Of a stretch of 64,000 nucleotides of DNA, positions 2,482-35,266 are shown one piece after another. The notes under the pieces are model-generated. The model was not told the origin of the DNA, ran no database searches, and saw nothing but the letters and a program-made list of their open reading frames with translations. Position 1 is the first letter of the stretch. Every line of letters starts with the position of its first letter. A program made the translations under genes and the position numbers. This stretch comes from Curtobacterium herbarum (GTDB lineage: Bacteria; Actinomycetota; Actinomycetes; Actinomycetales; Microbacteriaceae): contig NZ_JAFBBT010000001.1 of assembly GCF_016907335.1 (NCBI RefSeq), positions 1,674,001-1,738,000 of the forward strand, given 5' to 3'.

Positions 2482-2483
2482 TC

Positions 2484-3596: not shown

Positions 3597-3626
3597 TCGC
3601 TTCTTCTCTGCTTCGTTTCGTTCGTC

Positions 3627-3745
3627 GGCTCCGGGGAGCCGTGGTCTGTGTCGGGGGTCGAACCCCCGGGACGGGAGGCGCGTGGCGGGGCCGCCACGGG
3701 CCTCCCGTGCCGACGGGCCGGGTCCGACGTTCCGGACCCGGCCCG
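3627..3745. terminator. Four consecutive hairpins between tkt and tal
   Basis: Four inverted repeats sit back to back. GGCTCC/GGAGCC is at 3627-3640. CGGGGGT/ACCCCCG is at 3652-3668. An 18-bp arm pair with one mismatch (ACGGGAGGC.../...GCCTCCCGT) spans 3671-3708 with a 2-base loop. A perfect 13-bp pair CGGGCCGGGTCCG/CGGACCCGGCCCG is at 3714-3745. There is no T tract. They may attenuate tkt transcripts or protect tkt mRNA 3' ends. The third is a member of the dispersed GGGAGGCCCG palindrome family. Confidence 0.6.
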
Positions 3746-3751
3746 TTCGGG

Positions 3752-5851
3752 TCAGGATGCTGCTGCTGCGATCGATTCCTTGGCTGCCGAGATGACGTGC
3801 TCGGTGGTGAACCCGAACTCCTCGAACAGCTTCTGGTAGTCGGCCGAGGCACCGAAGTGCTCGATCGACACGCTGCGGCCGGCGTCGCCGACGATGTCGC
3901 GCCAGCTCATCGCGATCCCGGCCTCGACCGAGACGCGGGCCTTGACGGCCTTCGGCAGGACCGACTCGCGGTACGCCTCGTCCTGCTCGTGGAACCACTC
4001 GAGCGACGGAGCGGACACGACCCGGGCGTTGATGCCCTCGGCCTTGAGCTGCTCACGGGCGTCGACCGCGATCTGGACCTCGGAACCGGTGCCGATCAGG
4101 ATGACGTCCGGAGTGCCGTTCGGCGCCTCGGCCAGGACGTACGCGCCCTTGCTGACGTTCTTCGCCGAGGCGAAGACCTCGCCGGACGCGTCGCCGTCGC
4201 CACGCTCGAACACGGGCAGGTTCTGGCGGCTCAGCGCGATGCCGGCCGGGCGGTCCTGGTGCTTGAGCATCTCGAGCCAGGCGTACGCGACCTCGTTGGC
4301 GTCCGCGGGGCGGACGACGTCGAGACCCGGGATCGCACGGAGGGCGGTGATCTGCTCGATCGGCTGGTGCGTCGGGCCGTCCTCGCCGAGGGCGATGGAG
4401 TCGTGCGTCCAGACGTAGATCGCCGGCGCCTTCATGAGCGCGGCGAGACGGACCGCCGGGCGCATGTAGTCGCTGAAGATCAGGAAGGTGCCACCGAAGG
4501 GGCGGGTGTTCCCGTGCAGGACGATGCCGTTGAGGATCGAGCCCATCGCGTGCTCGCGGATTCCGAAGTGCAGCACGCGGCCGAACGGGTCGGTCGTCCA
4601 GGTCTTCGTGGAGGCCTCGGCCGGACCGAAGGACTTGCCGTCCTCGATCGTGGTGAGGTTCGACTCGGCGAGGTCGGCGGAGCCACCCCAGAACTCGGGC
4701 ATCAGCGGCGCGATGGCGTTGATGACCTTGCCGGAGGCGGCACGGGTCGAGACGGCCTTCTCGGTGCTGAACACCGGGAGTGCGGCTTCGAGGCCCTCGG
4801 GGAGCTGCTTGGCCTGGACGCGGTCGAACAGCGCCTTCTTGTCGGCGTTGGCCGCGGCCCACGCGTCGAAGGTCTTCTGCCACTCGGCGTGCTCGGCCTG
4901 GCCCTTGGCGATCGCGCCGCGGGTGTAGTCGAGGACCTCGGGGTCGACGTCGAAGGTCTTCTCGGCGTCGAAGCCGAGGACCTCCTTCAGGCCCTTGAGC
5001 TCGTCGGCGCCGAGCGCGGAGCCGTGGATCTTGCCGGAGTTCTGCTTGGTCGGCGACGGCCAGCCGATGATCGTCTTGATGACGATGAGCGACGGCTTGT
5101 CGTGGACCTGCTTGGCGGCCTCGACGGCGGCGAAGAGTGCTTCGGCGTCCTCGTGGTACTCGCCGGTCTTCTTCCAGTCGACGACCTGCACGTGCCAGCC
5201 GAGCGCCTCGTAGCGGGCGTGGACGTCCTCGGAGAACGCGATGTCGGTGTCGTCCTCGATCGAGATCTGGTTCGAGTCGTAGAACGCGATGAGGTTGCCG
5301 AGCTGCTGGCGGCCCGCGAGCGAACCGGACTCGTTCGTGACGCCCTCCTGCATGTCACCGTCGCCGGCGATCACGTAGGTGTAGTGGTCGAACGGCGACT
5401 GGCCGGCCGGGGTCTCCGGGTCGAACAGGCCGCGCTCGAAGCGCTGCGCGTAGGCGAAGCCCACGGCGGAGGCGAGGCCCTGGCCCAGCGGGCCGGTGGT
5501 GATCTCGACGCCGTCGGTGTGGCCGTACTCCGGGTGACCCGGGGTCTTGGAGCCCCACTTGCGGAGGTGCTGGAGGTCGTCGAGCTCGAGACCGTAGCCG
5601 TGCAGGTAGAACTGCACGTACTGCAGGATCGATGCGTGACCCGCCGACAGGATGAAGCGGTCGCGACCGATCCACGTGGAGTCGCTCGGGTCGCGACGCA
5701 TCACCTTCTGGAAGAGGAGGTGAGCCAGCGGCGCGAGGCTCATCGCGGTGCCGGGGTGACCGTTGCCGGCCGCCTCGACAGAGTCGGCGGCGAGGACGCG
5801 GGCCGTGTCGACGGCCTTCCGGTCGATGGCGTCCCAGGTGAATTCAGCCAC
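3752..5851 (-). CDS. tkt: Transketolase
   Basis: Thiamine-diphosphate enzyme moving two-carbon units between ketose and aldose phosphates. The 699 residues have the full three-domain layout: [13 protein letters not shown] with the catalytic His at 32, the ThDP motif AGDGDMQEG near 170, and the pyrimidine domain with [10 protein letters not shown] and the [10 protein letters not shown] stretch. The start is GTG at 5851; the ATG 19 bases upstream is out of frame. First gene of the tkt-tal-pgi-zwf operon. A TATGCT hexamer at 6009-6014 on this strand is a possible -10, without a convincing -35. Confidence 0.97.
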
Positions 5852-7587: not shown

Positions 7588-8553
7588 TCAGGCCCGGACG
7601 GCGTCCCGACCGGCGCTCGACCGGGTGGAGAGCACCACCGCGGTCATCGCCGCGACGAGCAGACCGGCGAGCACCATGTGGGTGCCGACGAGTCCGACGG
7701 GCAGACCCGTGCGCGCCTGGGTGAGCCCGACCGCGATCTGGACGAACTCGACGACGAGGAGCAGCAGCGCGATCCTGCTCGAGAGCCGGAGGCGGACCGC
7801 ACCGATGACGAGCACGAGCGTCAGGGCGAAGGTCGCGTAGGCGGGGACGGCATGCAGGTGCTCCATGAGCTGCGTGTCGAAGCCGGTCCGGTGCACGGCG
7901 CCGCCGTCGACGCGCTCGCTGGCGCCCGCGTGCGGGCCGCTGCCGGTCGTGAGGATGCCGATGAGCACGGTCACGGCGACGGCGGCCACGGTGCCGCGGA
8001 CGACGCCGAAGTACCATCCGGGCACGATGCGGTCTCGGACACGGGGGCCGTTCACCGAGCGGTAGACGAGTGCGGCCGTGATGCTCGTCAGGACGGCGGA
8101 GACGACGAAGTGCAGGCCGACGACGAACGGGTTCAGGCCGGAGATGACCGACACGCCGCCGATGACCGCCTGCACGGGGATGGCTGCGCCCTGGGCGAAC
8201 GCCAGCCAGAACAACTCCGGGCGGGTCTTCCGCATCCGGACGACCGCCAGGAACATCGCGATCGCGACGACGACCAGCACGAAGGTGAGCAGACGGTTGC
8301 CGAACTCGATGATCCCGTGGATGCCCATCTCGGGGGTCGACACGAGCGAGTCCGTGGTGCACTTCGGCCACGTGGGGCAGCCGAGGCCCGAGGCCGTCAG
8401 GCGCACGAGGCCACCGGTCCCGATGAGGACGACCTCGACGACGAACGAGGCCCAGGCGAGGACGACGACACGCGGGTCCACGGTGCGGGGGAGCGACCAC
8501 CAGGTGGTCCGAGTCCGGACGTCCTGCTCGACGGTGGGACCGACGCGAGTCAC
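7588..8553 (-). CDS. ctaA: Haem A synthase
   Basis: Oxidises the C8 methyl of haem O to make haem A in the membrane. The 321-residue product is strongly hydrophobic, with about eight predicted helices in two four-helix halves. Conserved histidines are visible in GIIEFGNRL (family EFxNR region), GLHFVVSAV, MEHLHAVPAY and GTHMVLAG. A cysteine lies in the first external loop (GLGCPTWPKC). The GTG start at 8553 is preceded at a distance by AGGAAGG. A TTGACT-17-TCCTAC promoter fits about 40 bases upstream. It works with ctaB and with SURF1 at 15801. Confidence 0.94.
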   Translation of the reverse strand: MTRVGPTVEQDVRTRTTWWSLPRTVDPRVVVLAWASFVVEVVLIGTGGLVRLTASGLGCPTWPKCTTDSLVSTPEMGIHGIIEFGNRLLTFVLVVVAIAMFLAVVRMRKTRPELFWLAFAQGAAIPVQAVIGGVSVISGLNPFVVGLHFVVSAVLTSITAALVYRSVNGPRVRDRIVPGWYFGVVRGTVAAVAVTVLIGILTTGSGPHAGASERVDGGAVHRTGFDTQLMEHLHAVPAYATFALTLVLVIGAVRLRLSSRIALLLLVVEFVQIAVGLTQARTGLPVGLVGTHMVLAGLLVAAMTAVVLSTRSSAGRDAVRA

Positions 8554-8591
8554 GAGGGTGGTGCCTTCCTGTTGTTCCGGGCCCTGGACCT

Positions 8592-8620
8592 GTAGGATTC
8601 GAGGGTTCAGCAGCAGTCAA
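8592..8620 (-). promoter_or_regulatory. Candidate ctaA promoter
   Basis: Reading leftward, TTGACT (8615-8620) is followed after 17 bases by TCCTAC (8592-8597). Transcription would start about 30 bases before the ctaA GTG. It is one of the few recognisable -35/-10 pairs here. Confidence 0.4.
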
Positions 8621-8742
8621 GTCTAGGCAGGCGCCGGCTCCGAATGAGCCGTGATCGCCGATCGGTCCCGCGACTGCGTGGAAGCATCGACGTTGCGAGG
8701 CAGCAACACCGTGGGACGCCGTGTCGGCGGCCTGCGGTGGAA

Positions 8743-22884: not shown

Positions 22885-23133
22885 ATGAAGACCGAAACCC
22901 ACCCCGAGTACCGCGCCATCGTCTTCCGCGACCTGGCTTCCGGTGAGACGTTCCTGACGCGTTCGACCGCGAACAGCGACAAGACCATCGAGCTCGACGG
23001 TGCGACCTACCCGGTCATCGACGTCGAGATCTCGTCCGCCTCGCACCCGTTCTACACGGGCAAGCAGCGCATCCTCGACTCGGCCGGCCGCGTCGAGAAG
23101 TTCAACCAGCGCTTCAAGGGCTTCAGCAAGTAA
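22885..23133 (+). CDS. rpmE2: 50S ribosomal protein L31, type B
   Basis: 82-residue ribosomal protein beginning [10 protein letters not shown], the L31 type B signature. It has no cysteines at the zinc positions (C- form), so it works without zinc. In some bacteria C- paralogues are induced by zinc starvation; whether this genome also has a zinc-binding L31 cannot be seen here. The ATG at 22885 is preceded by GAGGAA. Confidence 0.95.
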
Positions 23134-23220: not shown

Positions 23221-24042
23221 TCAGGCGCGGGACGTCGCCTCGGCAGCGGCAGCAGCGGCGAGCTGGACGAGCTCCTCGCCGGCCAGGACACCCTGCGCAT
23301 GCGTCACGATGAGGTTCGGCGCGGTCCACCCGACGGCGTGCAGCTCACCGTGCGCCGGCCGGATCGCCACGTCCGCCCAGGCGAGCATCTCCCGGTCGAG
23401 CAGCGAGTCACCCGCGGCGATCGTGCGGGTCGCGCCGGTGCGTTCGGCGACGGCGGCCAGGGCACGTTCCTTCCGGATCGGCGTCGGGACCGCGTAGAGC
23501 TTCCGGCCCTGCACGGACACCCGCCACCCGAGCTCGGCGAGTTCGGCGGCGAAGGCCTCGACGGCGGTGTCCGGCAACTCGGAGCGCTCGACGATCGCGT
23601 ACACGAACACGTCCTCGGCGCGGCGGGTGCGGAGGACCGACCCCTCGGGCAGCGCAGTGGCCAGCCGGTGCTCGACCTCGGGCAGCGGCGCCGACGTCGC
23701 CGCCACCTCGTCGCGCAGGGTGGCGGTCCAGGACTCGTCCGGCACGCCGTCGTGCAGCACGACGGCGCCGTTCGTCGTCACGGCCCAGCCGGTGGACGGC
23801 AGCGGCAGGCGGATGCGCTGGAACTGGGCGACGGTCCGGGTGGTCACCGGGACCACGACGGACGTCTCGGCCAGGGCCTCCAGGGCACGCTCCGCACGAC
23901 GGGTCATGAACGACAGCGGCAGGCCCTGGTACACCTCGGTGACGACGAGCGCGGGGGCGTCCTCGTCCGGGCCGTCGAGCATGAGTGCGGCGGCGGAGTA
24001 GACGACGGTGCGGTCGAGGTCGAACCCGACGAGGGCGCTCAT
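23221..24042 (-). CDS. HAD-family phosphatase of the Ter biosynthetic module
   Basis: 273-residue HAD hydrolase of the Cof/sucrose-phosphatase-like kind with a large cap. Motif I is GFDLDRT (Asp8, Asp10), the Thr motif is VVPVTTRT and motif IV is AAGDSLLDREML. HAD proteins of this type are a fixed part of the Ter-linked biosynthetic module proposed to make a nucleoside-like metabolite. Last gene of the operon; its ATG overlaps the stop of the fusion gene (ATGA). The substrate is unknown; dephosphorylation of a phosphoribosyl product is the natural guess. Confidence 0.88.
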   Translation of the reverse strand: MSALVGFDLDRTVVYSAAALMLDGPDEDAPALVVTEVYQGLPLSFMTRRAERALEALAETSVVVPVTTRTVAQFQRIRLPLPSTGWAVTTNGAVVLHDGVPDESWTATLRDEVAATSAPLPEVEHRLATALPEGSVLRTRRAEDVFVYAIVERSELPDTAVEAFAAELAELGWRVSVQGRKLYAVPTPIRKERALAAVAERTGATRTIAAGDSLLDREMLAWADVAIRPAHGELHAVGWTAPNLIVTHAQGVLAGEELVQLAAAAAAEATSRA

Positions 24043-26822
24043 GCGGCGGGCCCCGTGCCGGTGGGGTCGATGGCGTCCGCGGCGGTGTCCGTACCCGTGT
24101 CCGACACCCGGCTGCCGAGCGGGTGGATGAGTCCGACGCAGCTGTAGGACAGGTCGGGCCGGGTCACGACCGGCACGCCGCGCTCCCGGGCCAGGGCGAC
24201 GACGTGCGCGATGTCGACGTCGTCCGGGTCGCGGACGAGCACCTGCCACGGGACACGACGGAGCAGCACCCGGGTGGTCTCGCCGACACCCGGCTTCACC
24301 AGGTGCAGGTCGGTGATGCCGTACTCGGCACCGATCGCCTCGACGGTCCGCATGCCGCGCCAGTCGACCGCGCGCGACGCCGGGCCACCGTCGGCAGCCA
24401 CGGCCGCGTCGACCCGGGGACAGACGGCGGCGAACCGCTCGGCGACGGTCGCGACGAACGAGCGGGAGTGGTCGCGGGCACCGAGCTCGCGGTACTGCTT
24501 CGCGCCGTGCAGCGTGCCCTCCGGGGTCCAGGCGCGGTTGAACACCGTGCGGGACACCAGCCCCGACACGGTCGAGTTGAGGCACGCCGACGGCACGAGG
24601 TAGTCGTCACGGGTGCCGTGCAGCGGCGTGCAGCCGGCCGGGTCGGCGAGGACCGCGAGCTCGTCGCCGAAGCGCACGCCGTCGGTCGCCGCGAACCGGT
24701 CGAGCGCGTCGGTCAGCTCGCGGGTGATGGCGCCCTTGCCGGTCCAGCCGTCGACGAAGACGACCTGGGACGCGTCGTGGTGCGCCGCGAGCCAGCGGAG
24801 CGCCGTCTCGTCGATGCCGACCCCGCGGACGATGCTCGCCGTGTAGTGCTGCAGGCGGACGCCGCGCTGCTGCTCGGCCCACCGGCGCATCAGGATCCCG
24901 ACGGGCGTGCCGGCACGGGCGAGGGAGACGAGCACGGCGTTCGGGCGGTCGCGGAGGACCAGGTCGGTGACGATGCCGACCGCCTCGGCGATGCGGTCCG
25001 CCGATCGGCCGAGGGCGTCACGGTAGAGCTCCTCGTACGACTCCGACGGCACGTACTCGACGGGCAGCGACTCGGCGTAGTTCGCTCCCTCGAGCTGGAT
25101 GGCCCGTTCGCGGTCGGCGGTGTCGGCCTCGAGCGCCGCGTCGGCCAGGTCCTGCAGCAGCCAGGTCACCTCGTCCGGCTCGTACGACCCGAAGGACGGC
25201 CCCGTCAGCGGCCGAGGAGACGACGGCGCAGCACCGGCCGGTTCGAGTGCGCTGTCCACGACCACCACACGGGGTGTCACGGCGGCCAGGACGTCGAGCA
25301 GGCCGTCGGGACCCTCGAGTGATCCGCGGTCGGTGCCCGGCTCGGGCACGACGACGACCGCGTCGAACCCGTGCACGTTGTACGCGTACCGCTCGCCCGG
25401 GCCGTCGACCGTCACGTCGTGGGAGCGGTGCCGGATACCGGATCGGATCGGCCAGGCCGGGTCGTCGAACACCGCGACGGGGGAGCGGGTGCTCGTCGAC
25501 GAGCGGACGTCCGCGGTCGTCCGACGGCGGAGTGCGTCCGCGATCGCGAGCGGTGTGGCCATGTGCTCCTCGGTGCCGAGGACCAGGACCCGGTCCGGCA
25601 CCCGGCCCGATGCGTCGGTGAGCACCCGGGCCAGGTCCGCGGCGATGCCCTCGACGTCGGTCCGCGGAGTGCGGACGCGCGCGGCGGGGGTGCCGGTGCG
25701 GTCGACCGCGGTGGGCGGTGCGGTGACCGTCTCGGGACTGGAGGCGCGTGCCGGGCCCGGCGTGGGCCTCCCGTCCGACGTCGGGACACCATTGGACGAT
25801 GCTGCGTTGTCGAGCGGGCCCGTGGTGAGCGGTGCGGCGGCCGCGGCGACGAGGTCCGCAGCGGTGTCGGTGAGTCCGTCCGGCAGGGACACCCGGCCCC
25901 GCCCGAGGGCGACGACCGCGACGGGCGCGCCGAGCTCGGTCGCGAGGGCGTCGGTCGCCGCGACGTCCGCGTCGGAGCGCAGGTCGACGAGCGCCGCGAC
26001 GACCCACTGCCGCTGCGGTGCGACGGCGTGCAGGGCGCGGATCGTGGCGCGGGCCGTCGCGCCGGTGCTCAGCTCGTCGTCGACCAGGACCACGGTGCCG
26101 TCGGTCGGCAGCCAGTCGTCCTCGGTCGGGAGCAGGCGGTGCGCGGTGGCGTGCGAGTGCGCCTCGTCGAAGCCGGCGGCGGGTGTCGCCCCGGGCGGGT
26201 CGTGGCGGGTCGAGTGCAGGTACCCGGCGCCGAGGGCCTCGGCGACGGTCGCGCCGAGGGCGGTCGCGGTCTCGGCGAACCCGAGGACGAGGACGTCCGG
26301 CAGGGTCGGCCGGACCGCGGCGAGGTCGGTGCGGAGCGTCGTGGCGGCACGGTGCAGGGCGTCGGACCCGTGGCCCGAGTCCGGCGCCGCACCCGTCGCT
26401 GGGTCGGTCTCCCGCTGCTGGCCCGGAACGACCGGCTGGCCCGTGTCGAACTGCTGGCCCGTGTCGAACCGCTGATCGAGGACGGCCTGCAGGTCCAGGA
26501 CCTCCCGGAGGCGCGTGGCGGCCCCGGCGTCGAGGCGTGCGCCGCCGTCCAGGACGTCGGCGACGCGGGCTCCGAGGGCCTCACCGGCGAGCAGCGCGAC
26601 CGCGGGCACGGTCGGCACGTGCTTCGCGAGCACCGTCGACACCAGCAGGTGCGCGCGGCGCGGGTTCCGCCGGAGTGCGAGCCGGACGAGCGACGCCAGT
26701 GGGACGCCGGGGGAGGTGGACGCGGTACCGGCGGTGGGCTCGTCCGTCAGGACCACGCCGAGCTCGTCGGGCGTCGGCAGGACGGACCCCGTCGGGGCTG
26801 CGGTGGGGGTGGGCGTGGTCAC
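24039..26822 (-). CDS. PRTase_2-TRSP-StiP fusion protein of the Ter module
   Basis: One 927-residue reading frame joins three modules. Residues about 40-330 are a PRTase_2 phosphoribosyltransferase with the PRPP loop VVLVDDELSTGAT at about 244-256, and a small RFDTGQ/QFDTGQ duplication near 118-129. About 389-525 is a TRSP domain (LGTEEHMATPLAIA, RYAYNVHGFDAVVV). About 543-905 is a StiP-type cysteine-protease-like domain (FGSYEPDEVTWLL, VFVDGWTGKGAITREL, VPSACLNSTVSGL, KPGVGETTRVLLRR, SYSCVGLIHP). As I recall these families, StiP is usually a separate gene. No internal ribosome site is obvious; an internal GTG near 25256 cannot be excluded. The GTG start overlaps the lyase stop. Confidence 0.9.
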   Translation of the reverse strand: MTTPTPTAAPTGSVLPTPDELGVVLTDEPTAGTASTSPGVPLASLVRLALRRNPRRAHLLVSTVLAKHVPTVPAVALLAGEALGARVADVLDGGARLDAGAATRLREVLDLQAVLDQRFDTGQQFDTGQPVVPGQQRETDPATGAAPDSGHGSDALHRAATTLRTDLAAVRPTLPDVLVLGFAETATALGATVAEALGAGYLHSTRHDPPGATPAAGFDEAHSHATAHRLLPTEDDWLPTDGTVVLVDDELSTGATARATIRALHAVAPQRQWVVAALVDLRSDADVAATDALATELGAPVAVVALGRGRVSLPDGLTDTAADLVAAAAAPLTTGPLDNAASSNGVPTSDGRPTPGPARASSPETVTAPPTAVDRTGTPAARVRTPRTDVEGIAADLARVLTDASGRVPDRVLVLGTEEHMATPLAIADALRRRTTADVRSSTSTRSPVAVFDDPAWPIRSGIRHRSHDVTVDGPGERYAYNVHGFDAVVVVPEPGTDRGSLEGPDGLLDVLAAVTPRVVVVDSALEPAGAAPSSPRPLTGPSFGSYEPDEVTWLLQDLADAALEADTADRERAIQLEGANYAESLPVEYVPSESYEELYRDALGRSADRIAEAVGIVTDLVLRDRPNAVLVSLARAGTPVGILMRRWAEQQRGVRLQHYTASIVRGVGIDETALRWLAAHHDASQVVFVDGWTGKGAITRELTDALDRFAATDGVRFGDELAVLADPAGCTPLHGTRDDYLVPSACLNSTVSGLVSRTVFNRAWTPEGTLHGAKQYRELGARDHSRSFVATVAERFAAVCPRVDAAVAADGGPASRAVDWRGMRTVEAIGAEYGITDLHLVKPGVGETTRVLLRRVPWQVLVRDPDDVDIAHVVALARERGVPVVTRPDLSYSCVGLIHPLGSRVSDTGTDTAADAIDPTGTGPAA
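25740..25777. repeat. Dispersed palindrome inside the fusion gene
   Basis: GGAGGCGCGTGCCGGGCCC followed by the near-complementary GGCGTGGGCCTCCCGTCC matches the intergenic palindrome family (GGAGGC...GGGCCTCCCGTCC). It lies in frame in the linker between the PRTase_2 and TRSP domains (about residues 346-362) and encodes a Pro/Ala/Ser-rich stretch. Confidence 0.65.
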
Positions 26823-27985
26823 GGCTGGCTCCGCTCGAGCAGGTCGACGTAGGTCACGTCCGGGGTGGCCACACCGAACGCCCGGGCCCGGAGCATGGTG
26901 CGCTCCGCCCACGCGTGGTGCGGTTTCATCTCGTTCATCTTGTTGCCGTACCGGGAGGCGGCGACCCCGCCCGTCGCGTTCGCGAGCACGTCGGAGGCGT
27001 CCGAGAACTCCTCGTCGCTGACGACCGACATCGCGTGCACGAGCGGCACGTGGCGCGGGTGGATGACCGTCTTGCCGGTGAGGCCGTTCGCGCGGTCGAG
27101 GGTGACCTCGCGGAGCAGTCCGTCGAAGCCCTCCAGGAGGAGCTGCCGGCGGAGCTTCAGGTCCCCGGCCTCCTGGAACGGCGTGGTGCGCAGCTGCGTG
27201 CGGAACACCCGGTCGGAGTCCGGGTAGTGCTCCCACACCGGCCCCGCGACGACGAAGCCGTCGCGGGCACGACCGAGGACGTTCACCACGTCGCCGATCA
27301 CCGAGGCCAGCACCTGCACGTCGTAGACGGTCAGGTGCGATGGTCGACGGAGGCCGTAGACGCTCGACAGGTCGGTCGCGCCGATCCGGACCGCCAGGAC
27401 GTCGTCCCGCCGTTCCAGCAGCAGGTCGTGGACGTCGGCGAGGGCCTCGGTGCGGGACTCGCGGTGCATGATCCCGGGGGACTCGAGGATCGGCATCACG
27501 AGCAGTCGGGACCCGGGTGCGCGGCCCGCGTTCGCGGCGTCGAGCACCTCGAACCACCGGGCACCGGCACCGTCCGGGTTCTCGAACTTCGGCAGGACGA
27601 TGCCGGCCAGGACGTCGAGTGCCCGGCTGCCGAAGCGGTCGAGCAGGCGTGCGAAGTGCTCGGGAGTCCGGACGCGGAGGAACAGCTGCGGCAGCGTCGC
27701 CAGGTCCAGTTCCTCGGTGAGGGTGCGGAGCGCGGTCTCGACGTTCGCCTCGGCCGTGGGCAGGTCGTCGTCGGCGACGGAGTCCTCCAGGCAGAGCACG
27801 ATCGAACCGGCACCGAGCTCGGTCTGGCGACGGACGTCACGGACCAGGTCGGGCCGGATCCCGGGCGTGTACAGCGTGGCACCGAGGGCCACGGCGCGGA
27901 GGTCCTGCGGACTGTCCCGCGTCACGTCCTCGGGTGGTCGGAGGAACAGTGGTTCCTGGTCGGCGATGTTGGCGAAGTGGCGCAC
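26819..27985 (-). CDS. C-C bond lyase of the HpcH/HpaI-citrate lyase class
   Basis: 388-residue TIM-barrel protein related to citrate lyase beta subunit and HpcH/HpaI aldolases (the Ter-linked C-C_Bond_Lyase family). Visible features are LYTPGIRPDLV, IVLCLEDSV with an acidic pair for metal, VLPKFENPDG, VMPILESPG, AVRIGATDLSSVYG and KTVIHPRHVP. It should cleave or form a C-C bond in the biosynthetic branch of the Ter system; the substrate is unknown. GTG start at 27985, 3 bases after the upstream stop; the end overlaps the fusion gene start by 4 bases. Confidence 0.88.
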   Translation of the reverse strand: MRHFANIADQEPLFLRPPEDVTRDSPQDLRAVALGATLYTPGIRPDLVRDVRRQTELGAGSIVLCLEDSVADDDLPTAEANVETALRTLTEELDLATLPQLFLRVRTPEHFARLLDRFGSRALDVLAGIVLPKFENPDGAGARWFEVLDAANAGRAPGSRLLVMPILESPGIMHRESRTEALADVHDLLLERRDDVLAVRIGATDLSSVYGLRRPSHLTVYDVQVLASVIGDVVNVLGRARDGFVVAGPVWEHYPDSDRVFRTQLRTTPFQEAGDLKLRRQLLLEGFDGLLREVTLDRANGLTGKTVIHPRHVPLVHAMSVVSDEEFSDASDVLANATGGVAASRYGNKMNEMKPHHAWAERTMLRARAFGVATPDVTYVDLLERSQP

Positions 27986-27988
27986 GGA

Positions 27989-28909
27989 TCAGACTCCGAC
28001 GGTCGGGGCGGACAGGAGGAACCCGAACGCGGCGAACACGTCGCCGTCGTGGGTCGCCCTGGGGAACGGCTCGGCGCGGAGCTCGAGTTCGCCGTCGATG
28101 ACGGAGAGCGCCAGGATCGTGGTGGTGTCGGCGTCACCGGGGTCCACCGCCAGGGTGGTGCCGTCGTGCAGCCCGATGACGAGCCGGTCCGACCCGCGGC
28201 CCATCACGAGTGCCCGGCGGAGTTCGCGGACGTGGCGGAGGGCGACCAGCACGTCGGCGCCGTCGTAGCCGACCAGCGGACGGTTGCCCCGCGTGGTGAC
28301 GGTGCGCCCGGCGCTCGCGCCGTCGGCGGTCGCCGCGCCCACGACGTGGTCGACCGACTCCCACGCGGCACTCGTCGAACCGGTCACGCGGAGTGCGCCG
28401 ACGGCTGCACGGCGGCGGTCGATGCGGACCACCGGGTCCTCGGGACCGAGGACGCGGACGTCACGCGGGTCCGGTGCCGGGAAGGGACGGATCCGGGAGG
28501 CCCGTTCCGCCAGCCGACGCGCGATGCGGTCGGGACGGGGCTGGGCGGGCGCGGTCGCGCCGGGTGCGGGCACGCGGGCTGCGCCCGACGTCGGCGCGGC
28601 GGAGGTACGGGGTGCCGGGGTCCGGTCCGCGGAGGGCGCGGGCTGGCGGCCGAAGGACAGGCTCAGCCCACCACTGGAGCTCGCCGGCGCGGAGCTCGTC
28701 GGTGCGGCGGGTGCCGGCGCTGCCGGCGCTGCCGGGCGGGAGATCGGCCCGCCGTGGGCGGCGGTGGTGCTCGACGAGGCGCCGGGGCTCGACGAGGCGC
28801 CGGGGCTCGACGAGGCGGCGGTGCCGTGCGAGGCGGCGGTCGGGCGGGCCTCCTGGCCGGGCGGGGTCGGACGGACGCGACGGCGGAGGAACGGGTGCCC
28901 CGACGTCAT
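27989..28909 (-). CDS. Uncharacterised Ter-operon protein with disordered N-terminus
   Basis: 306 residues, not recognised. Residues 1-125 are low-complexity Ala/Pro/Ser/Thr with an ASSSPG repeat at about 32-48. A short GLSLSFG at 81-87 recalls the first residues of TerD proteins. About 125-306 look like a compact basic-then-beta-rich domain (IRPFPAPDPRDVRVLG, RLVIGLHDGTTLAVDPGD, DVFAAFGFLLS). The ATG overlaps the TerD stop by 4 bases and the stop is 3 bases before the lyase, so it bridges the TerD and biosynthetic halves of the operon. No membrane segment. Confidence 0.75.
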   Translation of the reverse strand: MTSGHPFLRRRVRPTPPGQEARPTAASHGTAASSSPGASSSPGASSSTTAAHGGPISRPAAPAAPAPAAPTSSAPASSSGGLSLSFGRQPAPSADRTPAPRTSAAPTSGAARVPAPGATAPAQPRPDRIARRLAERASRIRPFPAPDPRDVRVLGPEDPVVRIDRRRAAVGALRVTGSTSAAWESVDHVVGAATADGASAGRTVTTRGNRPLVGYDGADVLVALRHVRELRRALVMGRGSDRLVIGLHDGTTLAVDPGDADTTTILALSVIDGELELRAEPFPRATHDGDVFAAFGFLLSAPTVGV

Positions 28910-29466
28910 CGCGCGCGGCCGATGCCGTGGTCGGCGCGCAGGCCGGTCAGACCCGTCGTGTAGCCCTGGCCCACGGCGCGGAACTTCCACTCCGAGCGGT
29001 GGCGGTAGAGCTCACCGAGGATCACCGCGTCGATCAGGTGGTTCCGCTCCGACGGCAGCGGGAACGCGACGAGCTCGCGGCCGTCCGGGGCGCAGACGCG
29101 GACCGACATCGACCGGACCGATCCGAGGTCCTTCGGGGAGCGCGGATCCGGGTCGAGGTAGACCGCGAAGACGATCTTGTCGACGGTCTCCGGGATCGAC
29201 GCGAAGTCGACGTCGATCTCCTCCTGGTCGGACTCGTCCAGGTACCGGACGGACGCGTCGGCACTCTCGATCTGGTTGAAGAAGACGAGGTCCTCGTCCG
29301 AGAGCACGTGGCCGTCCGGACCACAGACGATCGCCATCGGGACGAGTTCGGCGGACGGGCCCCGGCTGGCGATCTGGTCCCAGTGGATGCCGACGACCAC
29401 CGACGTGAGGCCGGGGTTCTCTGCGGTCAGCGCAGCGTTCGCGCCCGGGACGAGCTGCCCGGTCAC
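28906..29466 (-). CDS. TerD-family protein, divergent paralogue
   Basis: 186-residue TerD-like protein of the calcium-binding beta-sandwich family linked to tellurite and stress resistance. It keeps the family C-terminus [15 protein letters not shown] and GELYRHRSEW, and VVGIHWDQ in place of LGLGWD. The usual acidic GDNRTGxGxGDDE ligand loop is replaced by LDESDQEEIDVDF, so metal binding may differ from the other three copies. The start overlaps the upstream gene by 4 bases and the stop overlaps the next start. It lies downstream of TelA, separate from the tandem TerD triplet. Confidence 0.9.
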   Translation of the reverse strand: MTGQLVPGANAALTAENPGLTSVVVGIHWDQIASRGPSAELVPMAIVCGPDGHVLSDEDLVFFNQIESADASVRYLDESDQEEIDVDFASIPETVDKIVFAVYLDPDPRSPKDLGSVRSMSVRVCAPDGRELVAFPLPSERNHLIDAVILGELYRHRSEWKFRAVGQGYTTGLTGLRADHGIGRAR

Positions 29467-30035
29467 GAGTCGGCTCCGCGGAGACGCAGGCCCTCGTCGC
29501 CGTCACCCAGGCGGTCCCGCAGGAACCGGCCGTGCGAGGAGAGTTCGGCGATTGCACCGCTCCTGATCTGTTCGTGCATGTCCTCCACCGTCTCCGCGAC
29601 GACGTCGAGTTGGCCGGCGAGGGTCGCCGTGGCGGCGCTCTCCGGGGTCCGGTCCGCTGCGGGCAGGGACCGGTAGGTCCGAACGGGCGTGGGCAGGTAG
29701 TCGTTGACGATCGCCTGGAACAGGTACCGCTGCTCGGTCGAGGCGCCCCGGGCGATCACCGTGCCGGCGGCCTCGCGCAGGAGGTCCTCGACGTGTCGGA
29801 CGCGCGAGGACACGACCGTCGGCAGGTCGGCCCCGGCTGCGCGCACGATCGTCCGGAGGTCGTCGAGGCCGGCTGCGGCCGCGGCGTCGTCGGCCGCGCC
29901 GCCCGAGCCGCGGACGTCGATGCGGGCCGCCGCAGCGGCCGCTGCGGACGCCGGGGTCTCGGCGTCCGGGTCGGCGACCCGGCGGTCCTGGTCGTCGTCG
30001 TCGCGGCCGAACAGTGCGCGCAGACGATCACGCAC
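29463..30035 (-). CDS. Uncharacterised helical protein after TelA, possibly XpaC-like
   Basis: 190 residues. The first 60 are acidic and Ala-rich and probably flexible; the rest looks helical (DDLRTIVRAAG, RVRHVEDLLREAAG, FQAIVNDYLPTPVRTYRSLP, LAGQLDVVAETVEDMHEQI). The YLP...Y..LP then QL pattern recalls XpaC, whose gene adjoins a telA homologue in Bacillus; this is a weak similarity judged by eye. GTG start at 30035, 18 bases after telA; 4-base overlap with the next TerD gene. Probably a TelA partner. Confidence 0.7.
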   Translation of the reverse strand: MRDRLRALFGRDDDDQDRRVADPDAETPASAAAAAAARIDVRGSGGAADDAAAAAGLDDLRTIVRAAGADLPTVVSSRVRHVEDLLREAAGTVIARGASTEQRYLFQAIVNDYLPTPVRTYRSLPAADRTPESAATATLAGQLDVVAETVEDMHEQIRSGAIAELSSHGRFLRDRLGDGDEGLRLRGADS

Positions 30036-30053
30036 GGCAGTCGACCGCAGGCG

Positions 30054-31274
30054 TCATCGCGTGACCGATCGGGGGTCGTCGTCGGTCTGACGTGCGCGCT
30101 CGAGGTACGGCTTCGCGCGCTGGATGCCGGACTCGAGCGCCGCGACCGTCGAGGACATGTTCTGCGCGGCCTGGGAGCGGAACGAGTCGATCGCGTCCAT
30201 CGTCTGGAACACGTTGTCGAAGGCCTTCTGCAGGGTCTCGACGCTGACGCCGGAGTTCGTGGCCTGCTCGTGGATCCGCGTGGTCTGGTCGCGGAGCATC
30301 TCGCTGGTCTGCAGGATCATCGCGTTCGTGGTGTTGTTCACGGCGTCGATCTGGTCGAGGACCATCTTCTGGTTGGCCAGGGCCTGCGCCACGACGACGG
30401 CCGTGCGGAGGGCCGCGATGGTCGTCGTGCGGGCACGCTCGACACCCTTGATGAGCTCGGTGTTGTTCTTCCGGACCAGGTCCATCGCCAGGTAGCCCTG
30501 CACCGACACCGCGAGCTGGGTCAGGATGTCCTGGTGGCGCTGGCGCACCGGGAACAGCACGTCGGCCTCGAGCTTCTGCGCCTCCTCGACCCGGCCGCCG
30601 TTCCGCAGGCTCTCGATCTTCGCGACCGTCGCCGCGTCGAGCGCCTTCGCGAACACCGCGTACTCGCTCAGCTGCTGCATGGTCTCCCACAGCTGGACCT
30701 TCTCGTCCGCGAGCGTCGCGTTGTCCTTGCGGAGCTCGTCCTGCCCGGCCATCAGCGACTTGATGATCTTGTCGAGCTGGGTCTGTGCCGACTCGTAGCG
30801 CTGGAAGTACTTCGCCAGCTTGTTGCCGCCGGGGATCATGCCGAGGATCTTGCGACCGGTGCTGAGGTCGGCCTGGTTCGGCGTGAGGTCCTCGACCGTG
30901 GAGCGGAGGTCGCCGAGGGTCGTGGCGACCTTCACCTGTGCGTCGTCACCTGAGCGCTTGGCGCCGGCGACCGACGACTGCGACCGCTCGAGCATCCGCG
31001 ACGAGAACCCACCGGAGCGGGCGATCTCCGAGCCGGCGATGGCGTTGATGCCGTCGACCTTCTCGGTGAACGCGGGGGAGCGCGGGTCGAGGCTCGCGAC
31101 CTCGTCGACGAACTCCCGCGCCTGGGCCGCGATCTGCGCCTGTCGGTCAGCATCCACCGGCACCATGCCCGGAGCGTCGTCCGGGGTGACGACGTCGGCG
31201 GCGTCGGCAGCGCGCAGGACGAGGGCGTCCTGCGACGGGTCGGTGGGCTCCGGCGGAGCGAGCGGTCCGGGCAT
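30054..31274 (-). CDS. TelA-family toxic anion resistance protein
   Basis: 406-residue TelA/KlaA-type protein. After a Pro/Asp-rich N-terminus (1-45) it is nearly all alpha-helical with long heptad stretches, including LGMIPGGNKLAKYFQRYESAQ, VFAKALDAATV, LFPVRQRHQDILTQLAVSVQGYLAMDLV and ERARTTTIAALRTAVVVAQALA. TelA proteins are cytosolic and accompany TerD in tellurite and stress operons; the molecular role is unknown. The ATG at 31274 has AGGAG upstream. The 110-base gap before it contains the CTG-rich repeats at 31323-31378. Confidence 0.92.
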   Translation of the reverse strand: MPGPLAPPEPTDPSQDALVLRAADAADVVTPDDAPGMVPVDADRQAQIAAQAREFVDEVASLDPRSPAFTEKVDGINAIAGSEIARSGGFSSRMLERSQSSVAGAKRSGDDAQVKVATTLGDLRSTVEDLTPNQADLSTGRKILGMIPGGNKLAKYFQRYESAQTQLDKIIKSLMAGQDELRKDNATLADEKVQLWETMQQLSEYAVFAKALDAATVAKIESLRNGGRVEEAQKLEADVLFPVRQRHQDILTQLAVSVQGYLAMDLVRKNNTELIKGVERARTTTIAALRTAVVVAQALANQKMVLDQIDAVNNTTNAMILQTSEMLRDQTTRIHEQATNSGVSVETLQKAFDNVFQTMDAIDSFRSQAAQNMSSTVAALESGIQRAKPYLERARQTDDDPRSVTR

Positions 31275-31322
31275 CGGTGGTCTCCTGTGACGAGGTGGAA
31301 CTGCTGGATGCTGCTGGGTGGT

Positions 31323-31378
31323 GCTGGGTGGTGCTGCTGCTGCTGGTCGTTCTGGTCGTTCTGGTCGTTCTGGTCGGG
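31323..31378. repeat. CTG-rich and 9-bp tandem repeat upstream of telA
   Basis: A CTG/GGTG stretch (31323-31345) runs into CTGGTCGTT units at 31343, 31352 and 31361, with a partial fourth ending at 31378. It lies in the longest gap inside the Ter operon, between a TerD stop and the telA start. Slippage here could vary the spacing. Confidence 0.8.
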
Positions 31379-31384
31379 CTGGGG

Positions 31385-31963
31385 TCAGCCGAGGTTGACG
31401 CCGAAGTCGGTGGCCACGCCAGCGAGACCGGACTGGTAGCCCTGCCCGACCGCGCGGAACTTCCACTCGGCACCGCTGCGGTAGATCTCCGAGAAGATCA
31501 TCGCGGTCTCGGGGGCGGCGTCCTCAGAGAGGTCGAAGCGGACGATCTCGGCGCCGTCCTGGTCGAGCACGCGCGAGTACGCGCTGCGGACCTGGCCGAA
31601 GTTCTGCCGGCGCGCCTCGCCCTGGTCGATCGACACCACCACGACGACGCGGTCCACGTCGGCCGGCAGGGCCTGCAGGTCGATGGCGATCTGCTCGTCG
31701 TCGCCCTCGCCCTGGCCGGTGCGGTTGTCGCCCTTGTGCTCGACGGAGCCGTCGGCGCTCTTGGGCTGGTTGTAGAAGATGAAGTCGGCGTCCGAGCGGA
31801 CCTTGCCGTCCGGGCCGACGAGCAGCGCCGAGGCGTCGAGGTCGAAGGCCTCGCCGGCCGTCGTACGCGGGTCCCAGCCGAGGCCGACGGTGGCGACGGT
31901 GAGCCCGGGGCTCGTCTTCGTGAGGGAGAGGTTGCCGCCCTTGCTGAGGGAGAGTCCGGCCAT
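31385..31963 (-). CDS. TerD-family protein (third of tandem triplet)
   Basis: 192-residue TerD. Canonical features are [16 protein letters not shown] at the start, [17 protein letters not shown], the acidic ligand loop [14 protein letters not shown] at about 99-112, and the C-terminal [15 protein letters not shown]. TerD domains bind calcium through these acidic loops. AAAGGA precedes the ATG. Very similar to the neighbour at 32042, consistent with recent tandem duplication; the two share more with each other than with the copies at 32652 or 28906. Confidence 0.94.
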
Positions 31964-32041
31964 GATCGGGTCCTTTCGTGGTGGGGGAGCGTCGTCGGTG
32001 ACGCGGGGTGCGTCGCGTGCCTCGGGTGTGTCGGGTGACCG

Positions 32042-32623
32042 TCAGTCGAGGACGACGCCGTAGTCGGTGGCGACGCCGCGGAGGCCGGTCGCGTAGCCCT
32101 GGCCGACGGCGCGGAACTTCCACTCGTTGTCGTACCGGTAGATCTCCGCGAAGATCATGCCGGTCTCGGACGCCGCGTCCTCGGTGAGGTCGAAGCGGAC
32201 GACCTCGTTGCCGGTCTCGTCGTTGACCACACGGCAGAAGGCACCGCGGACCTGACCGAAGTTCTGGTGGCGGGCGTCGGCCTGGTCGATCGTGACGACG
32301 ATGACGACCCGCGAGACGTCGGGCGAGACGAGGCCCAGGTCGATGAGGATCTGCTCGTCGTCGCCGTCACCCTCGCCGGTGCGGTTGTCGCCCTGGTGCA
32401 CGACCGAACCGTCGACCGACTGCAGCTGGTTGTAGAAGATGAAGTCGTCGTTCGAGCGGACCTTGCCGTTCGCCCCGACCAGCAGCGCCGAGGCGTCGAG
32501 GTCGAACTGCTCGCCCGCCGTCGTGCGCGGGTCCCAGCCCAGACCGATCATGGCCCGCTGCAGGCCCGGGTCGGTCTTCGTCAGGGAGAGGTTGTTGCCC
32601 TTCGAGAGCGAGAGGGTCGCCAT
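32042..32623 (-). CDS. TerD-family protein (second of tandem triplet)
   Basis: 193-residue canonical Ter[71 protein letters not shown]. Start ATG at 32623 with GGAAGGA upstream; a longer open frame to 32788 is inside the upstream gene and is not used. 28 bases after the first TerD gene and 78 before the third. Same calcium-binding fold; likely acts with its paralogues and the DUF475 protein at the membrane. Confidence 0.94.
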   Translation of the reverse strand: MATLSLSKGNNLSLTKTDPGLQRAMIGLGWDPRTTAGEQFDLDASALLVGANGKVRSNDDFIFYNQLQSVDGSVVHQGDNRTGEGDGDDEQILIDLGLVSPDVSRVVIVVTIDQADARHQNFGQVRGAFCRVVNDETGNEVVRFDLTEDAASETGMIFAEIYRYDNEWKFRAVGQGYATGLRGVATDYGVVLD

Positions 32624-32651
32624 CGATCGTCCTTCCGTCTGGGATGTGCCG

Positions 32652-33239
32652 TCAGAGCGCGGCGGCTGCGGGGCCGACCAGGTCCTGCACGGTGCGGCCG
32701 TCGGCACGCTCGCCGATCGCCGTGAAGGTCCATCCTGCTCCGGTGCGGGACACCTTCGCCATGACCATCGCGGTGTGCTGGCCGGCATCGGTCAGCTGGT
32801 AGCGGGCGACCTCGGGGGCACCGGCGGTGGAGTCGTCGACGACCCGACAGAAGGCGTTCTGCACGTTGTCGAACGTCTGGCGGCTGTAGCTGCTGATCAC
32901 GAAGACGATCTGCTGCACGGCGCCGTGCACCGCGCTGAGGTCGATGCGGATGACCTCGTCGTCGCCGTCGCCGTCCCCGGTGAGGTTGTCACCGGTGTGC
33001 TGCGCGGAGCCGTCCTTGCTGCGGAGCTGGTTGAACCAGACGTAGTCGACGGGCTGGCCGTCGGCACCGAAGAAGATCGCGGAGGCGTCGAGGTCGACGT
33101 CCGCGGACTTCTTGCCGCCGAACAGTCCGCGCTTCGTCGCCACGGCGTCCCACCCGAGACCGAGACGGACGCGCGACAGTGCGCTGCCGTCGGTCTTCGT
33201 GAGCGAGAGCGCCTGGCCCTTCTGGAGGCTGAGACCCAT
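32652..33239 (-). CDS. TerD-family protein with insertion (first of tandem triplet)
   Basis: 195-residue TerD that keeps MGLSLQKGQALSLTK, LGLGWD, VDLDASAIFFG and the GDNLTGDGDGDDE loop. It has an extra KRGLFGGKKSAD loop after LGLGWD and ends in GERADGRTVQDLVG instead of the usual FRAVGQGY tail. This is the TerD subtype often found beside DUF475/TerC genes. The ATG at 33239 lies 42 bases after the DUF475 stop. Confidence 0.92.
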   Translation of the reverse strand: MGLSLQKGQALSLTKTDGSALSRVRLGLGWDAVATKRGLFGGKKSADVDLDASAIFFGADGQPVDYVWFNQLRSKDGSAQHTGDNLTGDGDGDDEVIRIDLSAVHGAVQQIVFVISSYSRQTFDNVQNAFCRVVDDSTAGAPEVARYQLTDAGQHTAMVMAKVSRTGAGWTFTAIGERADGRTVQDLVGPAAAAL

Positions 33240-33281
33240 TGCGGTGAACCCTTCGTCGTGGTGCAGTCCTGGTCGCGACCG

Positions 33282-34412
33282 TCAGGAGGCGACGGCTGCG
33301 TGGTCGTCGGCCGACTCGTGGTCGTCGGCCTTGTTCTTGTTGCGCACCACCGACGAGATGAACGCGGCGAGGATGAAGACGACGCCGATGAGGCCGGTGA
33401 CGACCTCGTTCACCTCGGTGGTGATCGTGACGAGCAGGATGGCCGCGAGTGCACCGATTGCCCAGTGCGCACCGTGGTCGAGGTACTCGAACTCGTCCAG
33501 CGTGCCCTGTCGGACCAGGAAGACGGTGAGAGACCGGACGAAGAGGGCACCGATGAGGCCCAGTCCGAGGGCGATGATGATCGGGTCGGCGGTGATCGCG
33601 AAGGCCCCGATGACCCCGTCGAACGAGAACGACGCGTCGATGACCTCGAGGTACAGGAACAGCAGGAACGCGGCCTTGCCGGCGACGTTGCCGACGCGGC
33701 GCTTGTTGCTGATGCGGTTCGCCTCGGCCACCATCTCGCCGGTGCTCTCGAACGAGTTGCCGTCGTCCTCCGGGTCGTCGACGTCGAACAGCCCGCCGAG
33801 CCCGGTGACCAGGAAGTACGTCACCAGTCCGGCGATGCCGGCGATCAGGACCGTCGACTGGTGGTCGCCGGCGGTGGTGCCCGCGACGGCCAGCAGGACG
33901 AGGGCGACGATGACGTTGACCATCGGGAGCTTGCCGATGAAGAGCAGCGGGCGTTCGAGCCAGCGCAGCCAGAGGATGTCGCGCTCCTCGAACATGAAGT
34001 CGAGGAAGATCATCAGCAGGAACATGCCACCGAAGGCAGCGATCTGCGGGTGCGCTTCGTGGAGCAGGTACGCGTAGGTGCCGGGCTCGTCGATCGGGCC
34101 CTTCTCGAGCGCGAGCTGCACGGCCTCGACCGGGTTCAGCGACGCCGTGACGCCGACGATCAGCAGCGGGAAGAGCACGCGCATGCCGAAGACCGCGATG
34201 ACGATGCCCACGGTGAGGAACATCTTCTGCCAGAACGGGTTCATCCGCTCGAGGATGCGGGCGTTGACGACCGCGTTGTCGAAGCTGAGGCTGATCTCGA
34301 GCACGCCGAGGATCGCGGTGATGATGACCGCGCTCCATCCGCCGTAGACCAGCGCGATGGCCAGTGCGAGCACGGTGATGGCCAGGGACCACCCGAAGGT
34401 CTTCAGGAACAC
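33282..34412 (-). CDS. DUF475/TerC-family membrane protein
   Basis: 376-residue polytopic protein with about nine hydrophobic segments. The two TerC-fold repeats show as LEISLSFDNAVVNA near residue 40 and LYLEVIDASFSFDGVIGA near 255; the paired intramembrane acidic residues are thought to handle metal ions such as manganese. A charged cytoplasmic segment (FDVDDPEDDGNSFEST) and a His/Asp-rich tail follow. The GTG at 34412 has GGGGAG about 10 bases upstream. First gene of the leftward Ter operon; its promoter must lie at or upstream of 34413-34507. A TAGCAT hexamer overlaps the exonuclease stop. Confidence 0.9.
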   Translation of the reverse strand: MFLKTFGWSLAITVLALAIALVYGGWSAVIITAILGVLEISLSFDNAVVNARILERMNPFWQKMFLTVGIVIAVFGMRVLFPLLIVGVTASLNPVEAVQLALEKGPIDEPGTYAYLLHEAHPQIAAFGGMFLLMIFLDFMFEERDILWLRWLERPLLFIGKLPMVNVIVALVLLAVAGTTAGDHQSTVLIAGIAGLVTYFLVTGLGGLFDVDDPEDDGNSFESTGEMVAEANRISNKRRVGNVAGKAAFLLFLYLEVIDASFSFDGVIGAFAITADPIIIALGLGLIGALFVRSLTVFLVRQGTLDEFEYLDHGAHWAIGALAAILLVTITTEVNEVVTGLIGVVFILAAFISSVVRNKNKADDHESADDHAAVAS

Positions 34413-34504: not shown

Positions 34505-34510
34505 ATGCTA
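34505..34510 (-). promoter_or_regulatory. Possible -10 of the Ter operon
   Basis: TAGCAT on the minus strand, overlapping the stop codon of the upstream exonuclease gene, would give a leader of about 85 bases. No -35 seen; read-through from the exonuclease gene is the alternative. Confidence 0.25.
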
Positions 34511-35266
34511 CATGCTCGGGGCCGAGTGCCGACGGGGCCAACGGCCGTCGGCGGTGAACGTCGGGTCGCGCTTGCTCCGCATGTACTCCTGGAACGAGGC
34601 GGCCTGCTCGGCGCACCACGCGACCTGCTTGCGGTGCAGCTCCTCGGCGCTGACGTCGAGCTCGTCGGCGTACTTCACGGCGATGGCCTGGGCGACCCGG
34701 CCGGCGGCGATCGCGTCGGCGCCGGCGTCGTGCGCGTCGTCGAGCTGCACGCCGTAGAGCTGCGAGGCGACCTCGAGCGTCCGCTTGCCCTTCCGGTAGG
34801 TGTCGAGCGCCTTGTCCATCACCAGCGGGTCGACCACGTTGCCGATCACGGGGGACGCGATGCCGTGGCGCTTGGCCTCCCGGTCGAGCAGCGTCAGGTC
34901 GTACGGGGCGTTGTAGATCACCAGCGGGATCCCGCGGGCGAACACGGCCTCCACCGCGGCGACGATCTCGGCCACGACCTCACCGGCGGGTCGTCCCTCG
35001 GCCCGGGCGCGTTCGGTCGTGATGCCGTGCACGGCCGCGGCCTGCTCGGGGATCTCGATGCCCGGGTCGGCGAGCCAGGTGCCCTCGACGATCGAGCGCC
35101 CGGTCATGTCGATCAGGCCGACGTGCGCACTGACGATGCGTGCCGTCTCGACGTCGATGCCGGTCGTCTCGAGGTCGAACACCCCGAGTGCGTGCCACCA
35201 GGGTCGGGTGGTCAGGTCCTGCGGGGGCCGGGTCGCCGTGTCGAGCTCGGCAGCGGGGGAGGTCAC
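34508..35266 (-). CDS. DnaQ-like 3'-5' exonuclease
   Basis: 252-residue DEDDh exonuclease resembling the epsilon subunit of DNA polymerase III but encoded alone. ExoI motif FDLETTG (Asp31, Glu33), ExoII IYNAPYDLTLLD, ExoIII with His and Asp in LDDAHDAGADA. The last 40 residues form a helical tail ending in a TFTADGRW stretch. Could proofread, or trim DNA or RNA in repair. GTG start at 35266, 6 bases after a TAGCCT hexamer that overlaps the treS stop codon, so it is probably leaderless. Confidence 0.9.
   Translation of the reverse strand: MTSPAAELDTATRPPQDLTTRPWWHALGVFDLETTGIDVETARIVSAHVGLIDMTGRSIVEGTWLADPGIEIPEQAAAVHGITTERARAEGRPAGEVVAEIVAAVEAVFARGIPLVIYNAPYDLTLLDREAKRHGIASPVIGNVVDPLVMDKALDTYRKGKRTLEVASQLYGVQLDDAHDAGADAIAAGRVAQAIAVKYADELDVSAEELHRKQVAWCAEQAASFQEYMRSKRDPTFTADGRWPRRHSAPSM

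Follow-up and report, generated by a model that had tools for sequence, protein, structure and literature searches.

An eleven-gene Ter/TelA operon of Curtobacterium herbarum that is inherited as one unit and may couple a membrane-linked sensing half to a PRPP-using biosynthetic arm

Genomic modules that unite TerC, TerD and TelA with a lyase, PRTase_2-TRSP, StiP-PELOTA and HAD proteins were reportedly described in 2012 by Anantharaman, Iyer and Aravind. The proposal that such Ter modules include a biosynthetic arm making a nucleoside-like molecule, to which the first-pass annotation of the present DNA alluded, is indeed a published one (Anantharaman 2012, as cited in excerpts of PMC4633105 and PMC8115787). 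No product of the Ter arm was found among the open-licence papers searched at abstract level, in line with the remark of the same annotation, which knew of no identification of the product. Many bacteria have Ter systems, which are also found on Klebsiella plasmids, and the Klebsiella ter locus combines ter resistance genes with putative biosynthetic genes and a gene for a HAD protein (excerpts of PMC8115787). In CriT-CrpP of the Bcs3 capsule synthase (8a0c), a PRPP-using PRTase-type domain is combined with a HAD phosphatase that removes the 5-phosphate (excerpts of PMC10299916).

The window analysed here is a stretch of 64,000 nucleotides from the actinobacterium Curtobacterium herbarum, in which positions 34412 to 23221 hold eleven minus-strand genes in a head-to-tail row. 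The block had been delineated by the first-pass annotation; every gene was found where it had been placed, and Pfam backs the families that had been named. The features, in order of reading, are as follows.

34508..35266, minus strand: flanking exonuclease gene, which we take to be DNA-polymerase-III-epsilon-like; matched in 64 of 66 genus genomes and marking the site.
33282..34412, minus strand: first gene, a DUF475/TerC-family membrane protein of 376 aa with a GTG start (Pfam DUF475 3.7e-126, TerC 2.9e-16).
32652..33239, minus strand: TerD1, 195 aa, with the Asn/Asp-rich GDNxTG loop in the alignment (Pfam TerD 1.5e-48).
32042..32623, minus strand: TerD2, 193 aa, with a GDNRTG loop in the alignment; it exceeds the TerD cut-off of Pfam when the whole genome is searched.
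31385..31963, minus strand: TerD3, 192 aa, with a GDNRTG loop in the alignment; phmmer match to the solved TerD 3ibz at 2.8e-80, and, like TerD2, above the TerD cut-off of Pfam in the search of the genome.
30054..31274, minus strand: TelA, 406 aa (Pfam TelA 2.4e-85).
29463..30035, minus strand: candidate TelA partner ("XpaC-like"), 190 aa, probably helical, without a Pfam or NCBIfam family; defined by homologue searches and alignment.
28906..29466, minus strand: TerD4, 186 aa, a divergent TerD without the GDNxTG loop (Pfam TerD 2e-44).
27989..28909, minus strand: the protein of 306 aa listed as "unknown", with a predicted C-terminal TerD-fold domain at about residues 150-300.
26819..27985, minus strand: C-C bond lyase of the CitE/HpcH type, 388 aa, with LEDS, ILES and RIGATD motifs (Pfam C-C_Bond_Lyase 8.9e-111; 370.5 bits against PF15617, cut-off 28.4).
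24039..26822, minus strand: fusion protein of 927 aa with the Pfam domains PRTase_2 (45-309), TRSP (380-511), StiP (545-793) and PELOTA_1 (821-900).
23221..24042, minus strand: last gene, a HAD-IIB-like phosphatase of 273 aa with motifs DLDRT, TTRT, IRKE and GDSLLD; borderline for Hydrolase_3.
22885..23133, plus strand: convergent rpmE2-like gene on the other side of the site, presumably encoding ribosomal protein L31 type B.

From the TerC gene to TelA the gaps are 42, 28, 78 and 110 bases in order; TelA and the XpaC-like gene are 18 bases apart, and the genes of the 306-aa protein and the lyase 3 bases. Four-base overlaps, which had been noted for most of the second half, are seen at four of the last six junctions: XpaC-like/TerD4 (GTGA), TerD4/306-aa protein (ATGA), lyase/fusion (GTGA) and fusion/HAD (ATGA). 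A simple promoter scan of the operon returned 0 sigma-70-like sites, and terminator-like sites numbered 4 (1.5 expected), all within genes on the opposite strand and none on the operon strand; a single transcript is neither established nor refuted by these scans. Upstream of TerC, an alignment of 20 spacers showed no shared motif beyond a GGGAGA that resembles a ribosome-binding site and lies close to the start in most of them. For the nine operon proteins compared with the PADLOC anti-phage models (all but TerD1 and TerD2), 0 families were matched.

Comparison within the genus indicates how the block is inherited. The lyase is carried by 19 of 66 genus genomes, that of the window included, and all 18 other carriers have an identical gene order at the same site, between the exonuclease gene and the rpmE2-like gene. 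The empty site was checked in 21 of the 47 genus genomes that have no lyase: in 20 of them the exonuclease gene lies directly beside rpmE2, and the contig of the 21st ends there. The XpaC-like protein gives strong matches in the same 19 carriers and a weak match in one more of the 66 genomes. Since carriers share order and site and the non-carriers checked have the flanks adjacent, the eleven genes appear and disappear as a set; they are one co-inherited cassette, present or absent as a block. The close junctions are likewise kept: the start codon of HAD is placed 4 bases into the stop that precedes it in 18 of 18 genus relatives, and that of TerD4 in 17, the remaining locus (L091) having a broken XpaC-like gene. 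In the exonuclease tree, carriage needs 6 changes (bootstrap 5-7); resolution is weak, with 9 of its 37 inner branches starred, so that the tree does not tell one old gain with subsequent losses from transfer at the same site.

The same order is also seen elsewhere in the family Microbacteriaceae and beyond it. Among 150 family genomes, the 306-aa protein is present in 8, and strong matches to the fusion come from the same 8. A comparison of gene order with other Microbacteriaceae had been suggested by the first-pass annotation, and besides the 18 genus relatives, 7 family loci of other genera have the same order, with TerC adjacent in 2 and with two or three loop-type TerDs. Two weak fusion matches in family genomes (G001 and G038, E about 1e-3, near threshold) were set aside; the G001 stretch (L061) is without Ter genes. 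A scan of one genome per species yielded 39 loci of the 306-aa protein, 11 of which overlap genomes already counted, in Curtobacterium, unclassified Microbacteriaceae, Herbiconiux, Cryobacterium, Subtercola, Frondihabitans, Arthrobacter, Pseudarthrobacter and Sinomonas. The series TerD1, TelA, XpaC-like, TerD4, 306-aa protein, lyase, PRTase, StiP and HAD is collinear in all 39, one being without StiP and HAD where its contig ends, and TerC is adjacent in 23. This conservation of order is far beyond chance, and together with the co-inheritance and the conserved overlaps it bears out the earlier description of the genes as one block. In two Frondihabitans loci (L165, L166) the operon lies between matches to the exonuclease and rpmE2 genes of Curtobacterium, so that the site is common to more than one genus. 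One of the 39 loci (L159) comes from a record titled Sporosarcina beigongshangi REN13 and holds a complete actinobacterial-type operon of 66% GC under a Bacillota label; mislabelling or contamination of the assembly seems a likelier cause than transfer.

The two halves of the block are also met separately. The genes for lyase, PRTase, StiP and HAD are carried by eight loci from other parts of the class (L053-L060; five of them in one family with genomes of 7-10 Mb, three in another). Like the window, these loci have PRTase and StiP in one frame (7 of 8) and TerC/TerD genes nearby; unlike in the window, TerD, and in three loci TerC, are partly on the other strand. Genes for TelA, the XpaC-like protein and the 306-aa protein were absent from the 16-19 kb read at each of the eight, as judged by single-sequence and profile searches. 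The other half is found on three large Curtobacterium plasmids (D40, pS16 and pCPAA3), which like the window carry TerC, TerD, TerD and TelA, then XpaC-like, TerD4 and 306-aa homologues in order, and unlike it have a DNA methyltransferase gene after TelA (annotated in D40 and pS16; pCPAA3 is unannotated). The lyase is absent from the whole records of all three plasmids. StiP is present only in pCPAA3, with PRTase and HAD beside it, so that neither lyase nor StiP occurs anywhere in the D40 and pS16 records. As the plasmids keep the 306-aa protein without the lyase, and the class arms are without it, this protein belongs to the TelA/TerD half and not to the arm.

Two candidates were set aside. 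A gene annotated as a phosphoribosyltransferase near the ter locus of pS16 does not encode an arm enzyme: it fell below the Pribosyltran cut-off and matched weakly to the N-terminal domain of ribose-phosphate pyrophosphokinase. A TelA match on an Arthrobacter plasmid has no annotated Ter neighbours. Near the ter loci of D40 (L134) and pS16 (L176) are genes for dTMP kinase, NADAR, nicotinate phosphoribosyltransferase and NUDIX proteins, with further Thg1-like and lytic transglycosylase genes in pS16, and in both the methyltransferase gene stands between TelA and the XpaC-like gene. By this content, D40 and pS16 seem closer to large phages or phage-plasmids than to the usual kind of plasmid.

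The separability of the halves raises the alternative that two independent systems travel together, the TerC/TerD/TelA half serving stress resistance and the arm something else. Such independence would account for D40 and pS16, for the fusion and HAD genes without a lyase on the third plasmid and for the eight class arms, and Klebsiella terZ-F supplied in trans is enough for tellurite resistance (excerpts of PMC8115787). It accords less well with the block-wise presence and absence in the genus and with the short gap between the 306-aa protein and lyase genes (1-3 bases in all but one of the 18 genus relatives), and we regard it as possible but on the unlikely side. The earlier proposal of one module making a nucleoside-like small molecule thus holds in part: the unit with two halves stands and the enzymes fit the making of a ribose-linked small molecule, but a single compact pathway is too strong a description of halves that can be separated.

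In the sensing half, the Asn/Asp-rich GDNxTG loop distinguishes the TerD proteins from one another. This loop is linked to calcium binding. TerD4 matches Pfam TerD although the loop is absent from all 55 aligned rows. The 306-aa protein begins with a short basic motif, HPFLRRRVRP, followed to about residue 120 by a linker of low confidence and disordered appearance in the predicted structure, and its C-terminal domain (about residues 150-300) is probably that of a fifth TerD-fold protein, according to structure prediction. The likeness to TerD is invisible to sequence models and is seen only in the predicted structure: the protein had no Pfam match up to E 0.1, PF02342 included, hhalign against the four TerDs of the window gave 0.1% and 0.4%, and a search of PDB sequences with its profile returned only a chance-level match (E 0.069). 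The alignment of this protein left out one locus (L093) in which no start was found. It had been put forward as a source of undescribed biochemistry, an expectation weakened both by the probable TerD fold and by its company on the three plasmids, where it accompanies TelA, the XpaC-like protein and TerD4, in two of them free of lyase and StiP. Outside the window, a sub-threshold fifth TerD match (G000:C1:2783501-2783815, 23.2 bits against a cut-off of 25.3) lies in a 507-aa frame.

The XpaC-like protein presumably resembles XpaC, and its conserved blocks are STEQR..LL..DY.PTP.R.Y..L and QIR.GAI.ELS.HGRFL (alignment A7, which left out L091, where the frame is broken). The XpaC-like label of the first-pass annotation finds no support from models: no family exceeds its cut-off in Pfam or NCBIfam, and PF10112 (XpaC) has no match in the protein or in the whole genome. 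None of the homologues listed, those from the wider-alignment search included, is Pfam-annotated, and where named they are Micrococcales. The gene adjoins TelA in the window and in 18 of 18 genus relatives and is downstream of TelA in 39 of 39 loci. Compared with L085 it differs at 5 non-synonymous and 42 synonymous codons and is thus under purifying selection. On the basis of the STEQR and HGRFL blocks, the TelA adjacency and the presumed resemblance, "XpaC-like" is a fair lead and not a statement of membership. In L091 (G442, 8127-8695) the gene is split over two frames and the other operon genes are in order; in Sinomonas atrocyanea (L173, L174) more than 2 kb of extra sequence separates TelA from the XpaC-like gene, with opposite-strand open frames in L173, one of them MarR-like by eye.

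The centre of the arm is the fusion protein. Its three recorded domains, PRTase_2 (E 9.2e-58), TRSP (9.1e-21) and StiP (4.2e-94, 314.8 bits), were confirmed, and a fourth that had been missed, PELOTA_1 (7.9e-34, 115.7 bits), was added. The PRPP motif of PRTase_2 with TRSP is intact. The fusion had been taken as unusual; PRTase and StiP are in one frame in 25 of 34 loci. Among the 18 genus relatives only L100 (G469, 1826-5055) is unfused, the best matches to PRTase_2-TRSP and StiP-PELOTA being in different frames.

Within PELOTA_1, the 22 proteins of alignment A5 (the window and 21 of 26 proteins) share an almost unchanging stretch, KPG.GETTRVLLRR. An RNA-binding-type domain so conserved within the enzyme would suit a different function of the arm, in which PELOTA delivers the PRTase domains to tRNA or rRNA for ribosyl addition or base exchange, with removal of the phosphate left to the HAD protein. 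PELOTA/L7Ae-type domains can, however, also bind protein partners, and a CitE-type lyase, which is a small-molecule enzyme, lies upstream of the fusion in 39 of 39 loci; an RNA acceptor is in our judgement quite unlikely.

By structure prediction StiP has a PRTase-like core with a fold match to CriT, to which no sequence similarity was detected. The Pfam name of PF11202 suggests instead a cysteine protease, in which case the fusion would be a regulated protease and not carry a second ribosyltransferase, and C731, C747 and H772 are invariant in the 22 aligned proteins. The StiP alignment, A6, covers the window and 19 of 35 loci. The two distant StiP members that were examined (L062 and L063), both over the cut-off, keep the PRPP-type loops but have no residues matching these Cys/His positions. 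These members and the CriT fold match indicate that StiP fits a PRPP-using ribosyltransferase better, and they make the protease very improbable. In 38 of 39 loci the HAD gene follows StiP; the 39th is cut by a contig end. The HAD protein scored 20.8 bits against Pfam Hydrolase_3 (cut-off 20.9), a borderline value, and fell below the NCBIfam HAD-IIB cut-off; four HAD-type motifs are present, by the motif patterns as we remember them.

With gene content, order, co-inheritance, separable halves and catalytic motifs all observed directly, we consider it somewhat probable that the locus is one co-inherited Ter/TelA stress operon with a membrane-linked sensing half and a PRPP-using arm. TerC/DUF475, TerD1-3, TelA, the XpaC-like protein, TerD4 and the 306-aa protein would form a membrane-linked sensing and scaffolding set, in which TerD1-3 keep the loop, and TerD4 and the 306-aa protein, without it, are probably adaptors; the latter might use the basic motif at its N-terminus and its long linker to tether a partner. 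In the arm, by a presumed order of reactions, the CitE-type lyase would make or cleave an acid precursor, the APRT-like PRTase_2 and CriT-like StiP domains would transfer ribose-5-phosphate from PRPP, and the PELOTA domain would dock the enzyme, perhaps on RNA. The HAD protein would then strip the 5-phosphate to leave a ribose-linked product, possibly nucleoside-like or an O-riboside. A bolder version, which we put forward tentatively and think unlikely as a whole, is a two-PRTase riboside synthase: the APRT-like N-ribosyl-type and CriT-like O-ribosyl-type domains would act in turn on the lyase-supplied acid, HAD would unmask the product as CrpP does, loop-less TerD-fold adaptors would handle it, and StiP would be a ribosyltransferase across all Ter systems.

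The broad system was already proposed in 2012, and the reassignment of two of its parts is new here. If StiP is a PRPP-using ribosyltransferase working with a HAD phosphatase, a two-step assay follows, with PRPP in and pyrophosphate, then phosphate, out. Membership in the sensor half and the hidden TerD fold define clean deletion sets. The genus offers the whole system as a single cassette of 11 kb, and its naturally empty sites can serve as controls.

Compared with known systems, the arm matches the Pfam families reported for the 2012 Ter modules, and the window may differ from them in placing TelA, a protein for which no family model exists and a TerD fold invisible to sequence in one unidirectional operon with the arm. 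The Klebsiella ter locus resembles the window in having ter resistance genes, putative biosynthetic genes and a HAD gene, but these are arranged in two operons on opposite strands, whereas the window has one strand and one order (excerpts of PMC8115787). CriT-CrpP shares with the arm a PRPP-using PRTase-type domain, matched in fold by StiP, and a HAD phosphatase; CriT differs in having a capsule polymer as its substrate, and no PELOTA or TRSP domain, such as the fusion has, is listed for the Bcs3 regions (excerpts of PMC10299916).
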